This document shows positions 21,673-61,012 of a DNA stretch of 64,000 bases, piece by piece. The notes under the pieces were generated by a model. It searched no databases and was not told the origin of the DNA. It saw only the letters and a list, made by a program, of their open reading frames with translations. Within the stretch, counting starts at the first letter, position 1. Each line of letters starts with the position of its first letter. Where the stretch lies: the NCBI GenBank assembly GCA_025463135.1, contig JAOAPY010000053.1:1-64000 (forward strand), given 5' to 3'. Made by a program: the position numbers and the translations under genes. The DNA is from Acidobacteriota bacterium (GTDB taxonomy: Bacteria > Acidobacteriota > Blastocatellia > Pyrinomonadales > Pyrinomonadaceae).

Positions 21673-22482
21673 ATGCGCACTCTGGTCCATCTTTCAGATC
21701 TACACTTTGGCCGAGTCGATCAGGCGTTGATCGATCCTTTGACTAAGGCTATCGCAGCGATCGATCCCGACCTGGTTGCAGTGTCGGGCGATCTCACTCA
21801 ACGGGCTCGCTCGCGCGAGTTTCGCGCCGCCCGCATGTTTCTCGATTCATTGCCGCAACCGCAAATTGTCGTGCCGGGCAATCACGATGTGCCCCTGCAT
21901 AACGTGTTCACTCGCTTACTCCAGCCGTTGGAAAAATATCGTCGCTATATTACCGACAACCTGGAGCCGTTCTTTGCGGATGACGAGATCGCGGTTGTCG
22001 GCGTCAACACCGCGCGGTCGCTGGTAATAAAGGGCGGACGCATCAATAAGATTCAGGTGATGCGCATACGTGGACAGCTTTGTCCTTTCCGCGACGAAGT
22101 GGTGAAAGTCGTGGTCACGCATCACCCGTTCGATTTGCCGGAAGGCTATCACCAGCGCGACTTGGTGGGCCGAGCGCGGATGGCGATGGCTGGTTTGGCC
22201 GAGTGTGGCGCTGACATTTTCCTGGCGGGGCATTTGCACGTCAGCCATACGGGGCACACCGCGAAGCGCTACAAGATTCGCGGCCACTCGGCGCTGGTGG
22301 TGCAGGCGGGCACGGCATCCTCGACACGGGGACGTGGGGAAGTCAATTCTTTCAACGTGCTTAGAACGGACCATCCCGAAATTGCGGTCGAACGTTTTGA
22401 ATGGCAGCCTGACAACCGCGTCTTTGCAGTGGCGAGCCGGGAAGAGTTCCGCCACTCAAGTGAAGGCTGGCTCCGGGTTTGA
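21673..22482 (+). CDS. Calcineurin-like metallophosphoesterase
   Basis: A 269-residue binuclear metallophosphoesterase with all five family motifs: DLHFGR (D9, H11), SGDLTQ (D40), PGNHDVP (N70, H71), THHPF (H150, H151) and GHLHVS (H187, H189). It starts two bases after the lipid-kinase stop, implying translational coupling and possibly linked phospholipid or signalling-nucleotide chemistry. Its length fits the cyclic nucleotide phosphodiesterase/Icc-like branch, but the substrate is open. The stop codon is followed almost at once by a REPIN array. Confidence 0.9.
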   Translation: MRTLVHLSDLHFGRVDQALIDPLTKAIAAIDPDLVAVSGDLTQRARSREFRAARMFLDSLPQPQIVVPGNHDVPLHNVFTRLLQPLEKYRRYITDNLEPFFADDEIAVVGVNTARSLVIKGGRINKIQVMRIRGQLCPFRDEVVKVVVTHHPFDLPEGYHQRDLVGRARMAMAGLAECGADIFLAGHLHVSHTGHTAKRYKIRGHSALVVQAGTASSTRGRGEVNSFNVLRTDHPEIAVERFEWQPDNRVFAVASREEFRHSSEGWLRV

Positions 22483-22483
22483 T

Positions 22484-23049
22484 GTCCGACAAGCTTCAGC
22501 TTGTCGATGAGTAGGGATGAACGGGTTTTTAACGGAAACTGAGAACTAAAGGCGACAGAGTTTTTTAGGAGAGACAGCGACAAACTGAAGTTTGTCGGAC
22601 TGGTGAGGTCCGACGAGCTTCAGCTTGTCGATGAATAGGGATGAACGAATTTCTATTGGAACTGAGAACTAAAGGCGCAAGAATTTTTTAGGAGAGACAA
22701 CGACAAGTTTGTCGGACAGTTGAAGTCCGACGAGCTTCAGCTTGTCGATGAGTGGGGATGAACGAATTTCTATTGGAACTGAGAACTAAAGGCGCAAGAG
22801 TTTTTTAGGAGAGACAACGACAAACTGAAGTTTGTCGGACAGTTGAAGGTCCGACGAGCTTCAGCTTGTCGAAGAGTAGGGATGAACGGGTTTCTAATGG
22901 AACCTGAGAACTAAAGGCGCAAGAGTTTTTTAGGAGAGACAGCTTCAGCTTGTCGATGAGTAGGGATGAACGAATTTCTATTGGAACTGAGAACTAAAGG
23001 CGAAAGAGTTTTTTTAGGAGAGACAGCGACAAACTGAAGTTTGTCGGAC
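22484..23049. repeat. Tandem REPIN array (five units)
   Basis: Alternating palindromes in opposite orientation enclose five near-identical ~70-bp spacers at about 22507, 22631, 22748, 22872 and 22957. The forward palindromes (CGACAAGCTTCAGCTTGTCG or CGACGAGC variants) are at 22484, 22608, 22725 and 22849. The inverse palindromes (CGACAAACTGAAGTTTGTCG) are at 22578, 22818 and 23027, with a shortened form at 22701. The last forward copy (about 22940) is truncated. The period is about 115-125 bp. Each unit is a REP-spacer-REP (REPIN). The array fills the gap between the phosphoesterase and PAP2 genes. Confidence 0.9.
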
Positions 23050-23077: not shown

Positions 23078-23836
23078 ATGGGATTACGTTCCGGATCGGA
23101 CTTTCTTAACCAGTTCCTGCGCGCGCGTTTGTCGCGCGAGGGGTTTCTGGGGCTTCATCTGACGCTGGGGGTCCTTTTTCTGAGCGTGGCGACGTGGATC
23201 TTCGCGGACCTCGCGGAAGACGTCGCGACGGGCGATCCCTTGACGATTACCGACGCGCACTTTAGCAATTGGCTTCATGCGCACGCGACCCATCCATTGA
23301 CGTCATTCTTGTTAGTGGTTACGAATCTGCATTCGACCTTGGGTGTGACGGTAATGACATTGGTCGTATGCGTTTACTTGTGGCGTCGGGGCCTGTGCCA
23401 ATGGGTGTTTACTTTAGTAGTGACTGTTTACGGAGGGATGCTCTTGAACTTTTGGCTCAAAGGTGTATTCCAGCGAGCGCGCCCACACTTTGATGATCCA
23501 ATACTGACGTTGACAAGTTATAGCTTTCCCAGTGGTCACACGATGATGGCGACAGTTCTGTACGGGGCTTTAAGTGCGGTCATCGTATCGCAGGTGCGGG
23601 ATTGGCGTTGGCGCGTGCTGACCATCGTGGTGGCAATACTTCTAATTGCGCTGGTTGGCTTCAGCCGGATCTACCTCGGTGCACATTATCTGAGCGATGT
23701 GTTGGGAGCTATTGCCGAAGGCGCCGCATGGCTTGCGCTCTGTCTGACAGCGATGGATACGTGGCGGCGCGGGCGGGGAAGGAGGAAGGCAGGAGCAGGA
23801 GCAGGAGCAGGAGGCAGGAGCAGGAGCGGACTTTGA
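23078..23836 (+). CDS. PAP2 superfamily membrane phosphatase
   Basis: A 252-residue membrane phosphatase of the lipid phosphate or undecaprenyl-diphosphate type. The three-part active site is intact: K128...RARP (135-136), PSGH (151-154) and SRIYLGAHYLSD (S196, R197, H203, D207). About five to six membrane segments surround it (for example 22-42, 64-84 and 91-110). The catalytic face should be extracytoplasmic. The C-terminus is a Gly/Ala/Arg/Ser tail (from about 226) encoded by a GGAGCA-type microsatellite and is probably not functional. Its position after a lipid kinase and a phosphoesterase fits phospholipid turnover. Confidence 0.88.
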   Translation: MGLRSGSDFLNQFLRARLSREGFLGLHLTLGVLFLSVATWIFADLAEDVATGDPLTITDAHFSNWLHAHATHPLTSFLLVVTNLHSTLGVTVMTLVVCVYLWRRGLCQWVFTLVVTVYGGMLLNFWLKGVFQRARPHFDDPILTLTSYSFPSGHTMMATVLYGALSAVIVSQVRDWRWRVLTIVVAILLIALVGFSRIYLGAHYLSDVLGAIAEGAAWLALCLTAMDTWRRGRGRRKAGAGAGAGGRSRSGL

Positions 23837-23878
23837 CACACTGACGCACCGACGAGACCGAAAACTGATTCCCCGAGA

Positions 23879-23993
23879 ACTAACAACTAACAACTAACAA
23901 CTGACAACTGACAACTGACAACTGACAACTGACAACTGGCAACTGATTACTGACAACTGGCAACCGATTACTGATTACTGATCGCTGATAACT
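23879..23993. repeat. ACAACTG minisatellite
   Basis: About a dozen degenerate 7-base units (ACAACTA, ACAACTG, GCAACTG, then ATTACTG) run continuously up to three bases before the next start codon. The unit changes progressively along the tract, as expected from slippage and point decay. It leaves no ordinary ribosome site for the downstream gene. Confidence 0.85.
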
Positions 23994-23995
23994 TT

Positions 23996-24730
23996 ATGAC
24001 CAAATCCACCTTAATTGATCTTTCCCATACGATCGAAGACGGCATGATCACTTATAAGGGACTGCCGCCTCCGGTTATAAGCGACTATCTCAGCCGCGCT
24101 GCTTCGCGTGGCCGTTACGAGGCCGGCACTGAGTTTCAAATTGGCAGGATTGAGATGGTAGCCAACACCGGAACTTACCTGGACAGTCCCTTTCATCGCT
24201 ATCCCGACGGCCGCGATTTGGCGGCGCTCGAGTTAGAGTCGATTGCTAACCTCGAAGGTTTGGTTGTGCGACACGTGGGCGTTGCTGAACGCGAGCGGGA
24301 ACTGGCGCAGTTCAAAGAGTCAGCGCTCTGGTCAATGGATTCGCCTGCGAGGAGTGAACGATCAATTACGCCGGATGACTTTGCACACGTGGATGTGAAA
24401 GGTAAGGCAGTACTCTTTCACACCGGCTGGGACATGCGCTGGCGAACTGAAGCCTACGCCGACGGCAGCCATCCATTTCTTACTGCCGCAGCGGCGGAAT
24501 ACCTGGCGAGCGCGGGGGTCGCACTTGTCGGTATCGATTCCTTCAACATCGACGACACCGCCGGCGGCGGTCGTCCGGTCCATTCGATCCTGCTGGCAAA
24601 GGGAATACCAATCGTCGAGCACTTATGTGGCTTGCGAGAGTTGCCGAACGAGGGCTTTCGTTTCTTTGCCGTCCCGCCCAGGATCAAGGAGTTTGGATCC
24701 TTCCCCGTGCGCGCCTTCGCACTGGTTTAG
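23996..24730 (+). CDS. Cyclase family protein (kynurenine formamidase-like fold)
   Basis: A 244-residue member of the cyclase/arylformamidase family (DLSHTIEDGM at the N-terminus, GIDSFNIDDTAGGGRPVH and KGIPIVEHLCGL toward the C-terminus). In KynB-type enzymes the metal motif is HxGTHxDxPxH. Here residues 57-67 read NTGTYLDSPFH, so two of the metal-ligand histidines are Asn57 and Tyr61 while Asp63 and His67 remain. Either it uses a different metal geometry or it belongs to a non-formamidase branch. It has no clear ribosome site because a minisatellite abuts the ATG. The function is not assigned beyond hydrolase-like. Confidence 0.8.
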   Translation: MTKSTLIDLSHTIEDGMITYKGLPPPVISDYLSRAASRGRYEAGTEFQIGRIEMVANTGTYLDSPFHRYPDGRDLAALELESIANLEGLVVRHVGVAERERELAQFKESALWSMDSPARSERSITPDDFAHVDVKGKAVLFHTGWDMRWRTEAYADGSHPFLTAAAAEYLASAGVALVGIDSFNIDDTAGGGRPVHSILLAKGIPIVEHLCGLRELPNEGFRFFAVPPRIKEFGSFPVRAFALV

Positions 24731-36595: not shown

Positions 36596-36675
36596 GTCCG
36601 ACAAACTTCAGTTTGTCGTTTGAGGGGCTAAGAAAGTTTTGATGCGAGATAACGACAAACTGAAGTTTGTCGGAC
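36596..36675. repeat. REPIN, CGACAAACT family
   Basis: A forward copy (36596-36618, GTC plus CGACAAACTTCAGTTTGTCG) and an inverse copy (36653-36675) enclose a 34-bp spacer. Thirteen bases after it the MtaD-like gene begins, so the element occupies that gene's leader. A CACCCGACTTTTAACCGGGTG palindrome lies immediately to its left. Confidence 0.88.
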
Positions 36676-39795: not shown

Positions 39796-39818
39796 CGACA
39801 ACCTGAAGTTTGTCGGAC
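39796..39818. repeat. Solitary REP, CGACAAACT family
   Basis: CGACAACCTGAAGTTTGTCG plus GAC, one mismatch from the inverse consensus of the family. Unlike the other loci no partner lies nearby. It ends seven bases before the rrf2 ATG, so it replaces the normal ribosome-site region. Confidence 0.75.
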
Positions 39819-46453: not shown

Positions 46454-46536
46454 GTCCCACAAACTTCAGTTTGTCGTTGAGTAACTTAGACAGGCAGCCT
46501 GTGGTACGCCGATCGACAAACTGAAGTTTGTCGGAC
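46454..46536. repeat. REPIN, CGACAAACT family
   Basis: A forward copy (46454-46476, with one substitution in its CGAC start) and an exact inverse copy (46514-46536) surround a 37-bp spacer. It ends immediately before the ribosome site of the gene remnant at 46552. Confidence 0.85.
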
Positions 46537-55477: not shown

Positions 55478-55600
55478 GTCCGACAAACTTCAGTTTGTCG
55501 CCGCTTGCTCAAAAATCGCCTTCTGAGACAAAATTTTACCCAAACGATCACAGACTGACGTCTATGCTGCTTCAAATCGACAAACTGAAGTTTGTCGGAC
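55478..55600. repeat. REPIN, CGACAAACT family
   Basis: A forward copy (55478-55500) and an inverse copy (55578-55600), both exact to consensus, surround a 77-bp spacer unlike those of the other loci. It sits in the 299-bp divergent region between the acyl-CoA ligase and aldehyde dehydrogenase genes, where promoters for both should lie. Confidence 0.88.
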
Positions 55601-60314: not shown

Positions 60315-60359
60315 TTTGCGGCTCTGCCGCACGATGTGCGGAAAGGCTCTGCCTTTCCG
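60315..60359. repeat. RAYT element, left inverted repeat
   Basis: Two palindromes are spaced by seven bases: TGCGGC-TCT-GCCGCA (60317-60331) and CGGAAAGGC-TCT-GCCTTTCCG (60339-60359). The whole block is repeated inverted at 60968-61012 with only a few changes. A third small palindrome GAGGC-TAC-GCCTC (60381-60393) lies just before the transposase start and reappears inverted at 60934-60946. Confidence 0.88.
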
Positions 60360-60395
60360 TAAGTATTGTTTTTGAATCAAGAGGCTACGCCTCCA

Positions 60396-60959
60396 ATGCC
60401 GACAATTTCCAAAGACACGCCCAGTCTTTATCTCACAGCCGTGGCAAAGGACCGTCTGCCCGTTTTTCGTACTGATGCAATAAAGATTGTTGCTTGCAAT
60501 GCTCTTGCGGAGGCTCGTAAATCCTGCCGCTTCCAGCTCTACGCCTATGTCATCATGCCGGACCACTTGCACGCAATAACCGATAGCGTTCAGAAGCCTT
60601 CAAAGGTCTTGCGCTATATCAACGGGATCATCAGCCGACGCGTGATTGATCATCTGAAGGAGGGCGGCCATAATACTTCGCTCCAGAAACTAAGGCATGA
60701 AACCAGGGAACGAGGCTATCAGTATTCACTCTGGGAGCACCACAATAACGCGTTCCTGATTACGAGTGAGAGCATGTTTATGGAGAAGGTAAATTACATT
60801 CATCAGAATCCTGTAAAGGCCGGATTGGTTGAGCGACTTGAGGATTATCGCTGGTCAAGTATTCGATGGTGGAACGGCTGTCCGCTCGAGGATGAACCGC
60901 TGACGGTAGATATTGAAGAGATTTCATGGAGAAGAGGCGTAGCCTCGAAAAGACATTGA
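60396..60959 (+). mobile_element. REP-associated tyrosine transposase (RAYT, Y1/HUH)
   Basis: A 187-residue single-strand nuclease of the TnpA/REP family. The HUH motif is in MPDHLHAI (His57, His59) and the catalytic tyrosine is in YIHQNPVKAGL (Tyr134). The C-terminal EDYRWSSIRWW is characteristic of RAYTs. Such proteins cut and join REP-type hairpins. The gene is bracketed by nested inverted palindromes on both sides, the form expected of a REP-RAYT unit. TTG 60366 would be a longer start; ATG 60396 is chosen. Its hairpins differ from the CGACAAACT REP family elsewhere in the window. Inserted between the DUF1573 and dihydropyrimidinase genes. Confidence 0.9.
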
Positions 60960-60967
60960 AGGCTGAT

Positions 60968-61012
60968 CGGAAAGGCATAGCCTTTCCGCACATCGGGCGG
61001 CAAAGCCGCAAA
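60968..61012. repeat. RAYT element, right inverted repeat
   Basis: CGGAAAGGC-ATA-GCCTTTCCG (60968-60988) followed by GCGGC-AAA-GCCGC (60997-61009), the reverse complement in order and sequence of the left block at 60315-60359. It begins nine bases after the transposase stop and ends about 70 bp before the dihydropyrimidinase ATG. Confidence 0.88.

Follow-up and report, generated by a model that had tools for sequence, protein, structure and literature searches.

The 64,000-nucleotide stretch of DNA analysed here (hereafter the window) carries, at positions 22484-23049, a 566-bp array of alternating palindromes wedged between two genes, which raises the question of what kind of repeat this is and how it came to hold five copies of one unit. 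Each unit is made up of a forward REP palindrome, a spacer of about 71 bp and an inverse REP palindrome, and the five stand head to tail, reading GTC-CGAC(R)AGCTTCAGCTTGTCG, the spacer, then CGACAAACTGAAGTTTGTCG-GAC, with 7-8 bp junctions separating units. The reading of all five forward copies is AGCTTCAGCTT, and that of the three full inverse copies is AAACTGAAGTTT. An array of REPINs with this position, length, alternating orientation and five spacers had been proposed in the original prediction, together with a shortened inverse copy near 22701 and a cut forward copy near 22940, and all of these are present in the sequence. The locus is laid out as follows:

Upstream gene, 21673..22482, + strand: calcineurin-like metallophosphoesterase, stop codon 1 base before the array
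Unit 1, 22484..22600, + strand: forward REP 22484-22506, spacer 22507-22577, inverse REP 22578-22600
Junction of units 1 and 2, 22601..22607, no strand: 7 bp
Unit 2, 22608..22717, + strand: forward REP 22608-22630, spacer, shortened inverse REP at about 22701-22717, its hairpin tip 6 bases shorter
Junction of units 2 and 3, 22718-22724, no strand: 7 bp
Unit 3, 22725..22840, + strand: forward REP 22725-22747, 70-bp spacer, inverse REP 22818-22840
Junction of units 3 and 4, 22841-22848, no strand: 8 bp
Unit 4, 22849..22940, + strand: forward REP 22849-22871, spacer; inverse REP deleted
Unit 5, 22941..23049, + strand: forward REP truncated by 8 bases at its start, spacer, inverse REP 23027-23049
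Downstream gene, 23078..23836, + strand: PAP2-superfamily phosphatase, start codon 28 bases after the array

The periodicity is recovered by Tandem Repeats Finder as a period of 117 (score 716) over 22484-22941 and a period of 84 (score 291) over 22857-23027, and the five-unit copy number is that of one draft assembly in 56 contigs. When the 20-base palindrome is allowed up to three mismatches, 18 matches are found in the window, counting both strands and the dispersed REPs, where dinucleotide shuffles predict 0.01, and a gap-free spacer pattern matches two of the five array spacers, the others differing in length, against 0.00 expected from the same kind of shuffle. The array also folds strongly, with z-scores of -7.1 as DNA and -11.1 as RNA. 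Ten palindromes would be expected from five units; seven are complete, one inverse copy is missing, one forward copy lacks its first 8 bases and one inverse copy lacks 6 internal bases. Since units 4 and 5 are spaced by 84 instead of 125, the absent inverse copy and the truncated forward copy are the outcome of a single deletion of about 41 bp (its ends read by eye), which fused the two units and took with it unit 4's inverse palindrome, the adjoining junction and the 8 bases that would open unit 5's forward palindrome. The suggestion that the internal lesions are scars is thus borne out by two distinct deletions at palindromes, and the position of both at hairpins would fit replication across folded DNA.

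The palindrome belongs to an abundant family. In the 6.48-Mb genome from which the window comes (G000), it has 242 forward and 238 reverse matches at up to three mismatches (about 480, a few palindromes possibly being counted on both strands), compared with none for a reversed-pattern control, in agreement with the prediction that the array is composed of REPINs of one family. Exact 13-base halves number 244 for the TTT type and 41 for the CTT type. A foot, GTC (often TGTC), faces outward before CGAC and is present on at least one outer side in each of 29 sampled two-REP elements, and the bases preceding it are A, A and T in 31, 32 and 33 of 58 sampled REPIN ends, respectively; complementarity between the flanks of REPIN ends is near the chance quarter at most positions, reaching 12 of 29 at the best. 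Short, palindromic, present in many mostly scattered copies and provided with a conserved foot, the repeat is therefore a REP, and the array units and sampled elements are REPINs in consisting of two inverted, foot-outward REPs around a spacer. Elsewhere in the window the family is represented by:

Single REPIN, a homodimer, 36596..36675, no strand
Further REPs, 39796-39818, 46454-46536 and 55478-55600

Fifty-nine relatives, all from other genera, were compared. At least one REP match occurs in 24 of them; low counts often reflect weak matches, and the control itself scores one or two matches in 13 genomes. The top counts are 133 (G029), 101 (G017), 74 (G009), 46 (G044), 37 (G033), 37 (G052) and 18 (G023).

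The two arms of each unit are not the same palindrome. The two types differ jointly at stem positions 7 and 14, with an A-T pair in one and a G-C pair in the other, and a third type with T-A exists. Among 116 distinct REP instances, drawn from the window genome and from loci fetched in relatives, this pair is A-T in 64, G-C in 43 and T-A in 3 (110 of 116 paired), and 340 of 348 cells are paired over the three free stem pairs, where shuffles average 302 and never exceed 312, a statistic that is inflated by related copies. The compensatory change bears on the single palindrome and not on the long hairpin between arms, which in the heterodimer carries 3 mismatches in 20 positions (2 for unit 1) against 0 in the homodimer, the local hairpins remaining intact. 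Given the paired stem changes and the weakened long hairpin, the single-palindrome hairpin appears to be the constrained structure. The original prediction had contrasted AGCTT in the forward copies with AAACT in the inverse copies and had taken the two arms to evolve separately; the difference is real, but it is not private to this array, since 41 exact AGCTT-type halves occur genome-wide, and the sampled pairs with a C-type arm and both arms scored as C or T comprise 13 heterodimers, with an AAACT-type partner, and 2 homodimers. These figures leave out 3 of the 29 pairs, in which one arm is of neither type, and come from a biased sample of loci fetched for REPs, many picked for the AGCTT type. 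Judging from the sequences compared, the asymmetry is that of a REP variant spread over the genome, which keeps each local hairpin paired.

It had been argued that local amplification would be in doubt were the spacer to be found nowhere else. A search of the genome, in which 40 of 282 first-look candidates were scored, located it in a second array, of four units, on another contig (C37:240888-241466). Pairwise identity is 88.0-97.4% within the window array and 91.3-97.9% within the C37 array, yet 70.3-80.6% between the two, a contrast (88-98% against 70-81%) that speaks for the local amplification originally suggested. Junctions are likewise different, at 7-8 bp in the window array and 28, 41 and 41 bp in the C37 array, so that each array was amplified or homogenised on its own once a REPIN had been shared between them. 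At C40:199071-199186 lies a single REPIN that can be aligned with a whole array unit at 70%; it is possibly a distant relation with a dispersed, diverged copy of the spacer. Seven more ordered clusters with other spacers were uncovered by searching for pairs of exact 13-mers that point the same way and lie 25-85 or 86-146 bases apart, which brings the genome to at least nine in all, both numbers being lower bounds. The seven, of which the three ladders are loci L084, L085 and L109, are:

C53:2041-2330, four units, fused at the foot
C42:154618-154959, ordered cluster
C40:223353-223537, two units, with about 20 bp beyond the unit duplicated
C42:168838-169100, ladder in which four spacers separate five palindromes and a foot is kept at the two ends only
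C45:59811-60118, ladder built like the preceding one, except that its left foot reads GTT
C49:123257-123454, ladder with three palindromes scored and a fourth, with an inserted base, by eye; foot only at the outer ends
C33:60318-60545, mixed ordered cluster

Two further candidates were rejected as tandem clusters, that at C42:103.6k being a REP beside a REPIN and that at C54:87.6k a REPIN with a 197-bp gap. In the cluster at C40:223353-223537, nearly identical DNA of about 20 bp follows each unit, the second copy forming the outer flank (by eye); duplication of this outer flank along with the unit fits local duplication rather than repeated insertion.

The clusters differ in how they are built, and we offer, tentatively and as an idea that we think somewhat doubtful, that arm symmetry sets the mode of expansion, homodimers giving palindrome-spacer ladders and heterodimers whole units only. 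The arms of homodimeric REPINs show 0 of 20 mismatches when compared inverted and 2 of 20 when compared directly, those of heterodimeric REPINs 3 and 5. Homodimer arms, being perfect inverted and near-perfect direct repeats, could slip on each other and so produce a ladder with a foot only at its outer ends, and a heterodimeric REPIN, in which slippage between arms would not be easy, might expand as whole units, as at 22484-23049. All three ladders are homodimeric and three of five whole-unit clusters are heterodimeric, a contrast over eight clusters that is not significant (hand calculation, about 0.18) and from which the mixed ninth, C33:60318-60545, was left out. No account of ladders with a foot only at their ends was found in a narrow literature search.

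Of the 60 genomes, the window genome alone contains pairs of exact 13-base halves that share an orientation and are 40-100 apart, a result that does not demonstrate uniqueness, because this 13-mer pattern misses tandem clusters in the relative G017, whose same-orientation REP neighbours lie just outside that gap or carry mismatches. The notion that arrays are confined to the window genome was accordingly dropped, as G017 possesses tandem clusters of a related REP; the case for local amplification does not depend on that notion. Seven such places in G017 were read, yielding three tandem arrays, one two-copy repeat and three places without a tandem repeat holding REPs; the arrays (loci L260, L261 and L263) and the two-copy repeat are:

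G017 C52, tandem array, period 120, 2.2 copies
G017 C87, tandem array, period 107, 2.4 copies
G017 C76:32.3k, tandem array, period 28, 3.8 copies
G017 C88:46.9k, two-copy repeat, period 31

The G017 clusters resemble the window array in being made of related palindromes, GTACGATAGGCTTCAGCCTGTCG and GTCCGATAAGCTTCAGCTTGTCG, arranged as tandem arrays that either adjoin a RAYT-like gene (L237) or stand alone. A pattern built on the array's junctions, run over the 60 genomes, matched beyond its own genome once in each of four relatives; its reversed control also matched once in each of four genomes, so the relatives' matches look like chance.

The history of the locus was followed through its upstream gene. 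The best 25 protein matches of the phosphoesterase in named genomes share 64-71% identity and are labelled Pyrinomonadaceae, Blastocatellia, Chloracidobacterium or Acidobacteria, and those that come after are mostly from Betaproteobacteria; the window would accordingly derive from a Pyrinomonadaceae-like acidobacterium. The order kinase, phosphoesterase, PAP2-type gene was found in 11 of the 80 loci fetched with the upstream gene, some of which stop short of the downstream gap, with 33-60% identity in the PAP2 protein, and in none of these 11 does the array's REP family lie between phosphoesterase and PAP2-type gene. Four-mismatch matches inside the phosphoesterase frame (L141, L144, L149) were discounted as noise, as were single weak matches at other places in L141 and L154. 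A short REPIN of the array's family stands before the phosphoesterase gene in L141 (by eye). As far as these upstream-gene loci go, the array would be lineage-specific. In the same related MAG the gap before the PAP2-type gene (L141 3807-4449) is filled by palindromes of other families, again by eye. A terminator scan gave 2 hits, both of them minus-strand and no more than the 1.9 to be expected, a promoter scan found no promoter-like site, and Rfam returned two weak microRNA matches, far below the gathering scores, which we take as chance. Two other repeats occur nearby in the window, namely a GCAGGA hexamer repeat encoding alanine-glycine repeats at the end of the PAP2 gene (23789-23827), and, at 23878-23993 directly before a gene start at 23996, a 7-bp motif (AACTGAC or a variant of it) repeated about 12 times.

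A mobiliser for the family was sought among RAYTs. The array's REP is absent from the 1.5-2 kb flanks of all six Y1-transposase matches in the genome, and of the genome's RAYT matches, two above the cut-off and one just below it, none is flanked by this REP. One of them lies in the window itself (60366-60959; REP-associated tyrosine transposase, NCBIfam, 94.8 bits, cut-off 80), between two copies of CGGAAAGGC-NNN-GCCTTTCCG (60339-60988), a palindrome found nowhere else in the window and also near several homologues of this RAYT in relatives. Near the other two RAYTs, one on C16 that passes the cut-off and one on C32 that falls short of it at 76 bits, no perfect 8-bp palindrome occurs. Seven REP-bearing relatives together have 53 RAYT matches, and in the 32 of these regions that were fetched no GTCCGAC-type REP immediately flanks the gene; one REP of a related variant lies about 230 bp from the RAYT frame in G017:C109, and REPINs lie more than 1 kb from the RAYT in G029:C9:518k and G009:C9:94k. 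In G017:C25 (L237 1479-3275), long tandem arrays of the REP GTACGATAGGCTTCAGCCTGTCG stand on both sides of a RAYT-like gene, which supports a link between this type of REP and RAYTs. The protein of that gene is not closely matched by any in the window genome, where its best counterpart shares 22% identity. The fetched frames closest to the C32 RAYT come from G052 (71%) and G044 (61%), both REP-bearing, making it a candidate link to the array's family, although this is a lead only.

Given these observations, the array, which is composed of near-identical REPINs with flanks placed head to tail, is very probably a tandem REPIN cluster, amplified locally from one REPIN and subsequently pared by small hairpin-caused deletions. 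A founding REPIN, two head-to-head REP palindromes around a 71-bp spacer, would have entered the gap between the metallophosphoesterase and PAP2 genes, presumably delivered in trans by a RAYT-type transposase. Slippage, or unequal recombination between direct repeats, would then have raised the number of units, each with a few junction bases, to five on the spot, before the hairpins caused the small deletions. The 7-8 bp junctions are likely copied flank; the left flank and the junctions are alike only loosely by eye, and the ends of the duplicated segment are therefore not proven. The cluster might alternatively have been assembled by serial insertion, with REPINs transposing repeatedly into or beside an existing REPIN under the guidance of its foot or hairpin. 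The biased bases outside the foot would suit a transposase-recognised end, the RAYT-like gene of G017 has arrays of a related REP family to either side of it, and clusters formed by insertion beside existing REPINs are described for SBW25 in the available part of PMC3116915. All five units, however, carry one spacer despite some 480 REP matches that could have served as donors, that spacer recurs at good identity in one other place, itself an array, among the candidates scored, and DNA beyond the unit was co-duplicated in the C40 cluster, and we regard serial insertion as improbable.

Selection for function is about equally improbable in our estimation. A transcribed multi-hairpin spacer might stabilise the upstream message or separate expression of the two genes, as might be read from their shared strand, from the position of the array 1 base after one gene and 28 bases before the next, and from the RNA fold. 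E. coli BIMEs bind gyrase and IHF, and the roles proposed for them include message stabilisation or separating expression. Yet the array is absent at 11 loci with the same gene order, it shows neither an excess of terminators nor a promoter-like site, its spacer differs by 19-30% between the window and C37 arrays, and hairpin folding is common to REPs in general; on the main reading the array would have no dedicated function beyond that of a strongly folding spacer. An assembly artefact or collapsed repeat is a possibility in any draft of 56 contigs, but we consider it very unlikely here, given that the units differ by substitutions and two distinct deletions, that genes lie on both sides, and that collapse would imply a higher true copy number and not a lower one. 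The regular palindromes at regular spacing superficially recall a CRISPR, a reading to which we attach next to no probability: CRISPR arrays have unique spacers and a single repeat orientation, and are ruled out by the near-identical spacers and alternating orientation seen here, and the same palindrome is dispersed some 480 times in the genome.

We therefore return to local amplification of a REPIN, and the array is most likely a known kind of repeat cluster, so formed, in a new lineage. In E. coli, BIMEs, including BIME-2, alternate in orientation and combine two REP variants, Y and Z, in one element. The BIMEs with Y and Z2 REPs, in the accessible part of PMC6006769, share both traits with the window array, but their palindrome is unrelated to it. 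The original prediction had viewed tandem arrays of REPINs as exceptional; this is not supported, as the available part of Bertels and Rainey (2011, PMC3116915) reports 16 ordered clusters of tandem, near-identical REPINs with their flanks in Pseudomonas fluorescens SBW25, the largest comprising four REPINs and one REP over more than 700 bp. As far as that text goes, the SBW25 clusters match ours in head-to-tail arrangement of near-identical REPINs with flanks and in total size, and differ in REP sequence, in phylum and in that the window arms are two REP variants; three of them adjoin RAYTs, whereas the window cluster does not. Di Nocera et al. (2013, PMC3733652), in the portion available, describe heterodimers, as well as dimers and singletons reiterated in tandem with their flanks, and name Koribacter and Acidobacter- once each. 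Their HH heterodimers of the GTAG/CGTC super-families are, like the array units, head-to-head dimers with the foot outside, and the array's REP fits the 8-bp stem, 4-base loop and 3-base tail of the CGTC column in their table; its foot, GTC (often TGTC), is however neither GTAG nor CGTC, placing it outside these super-families as that portion presents them. In literature of which our coverage was partial, we found no title or abstract on this REP family for Acidobacteria or Pyrinomonadaceae.

These results extend tandem REPIN clusters to the Acidobacteriota, and provide a single genome in which one REP family forms nine or more ordered clusters, which should be useful for understanding how such arrays grow. 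Moreover, the paired changes in the stem point to the hairpin of the single palindrome, and not to the long hairpin between arms, as the structure that appears to be under constraint.
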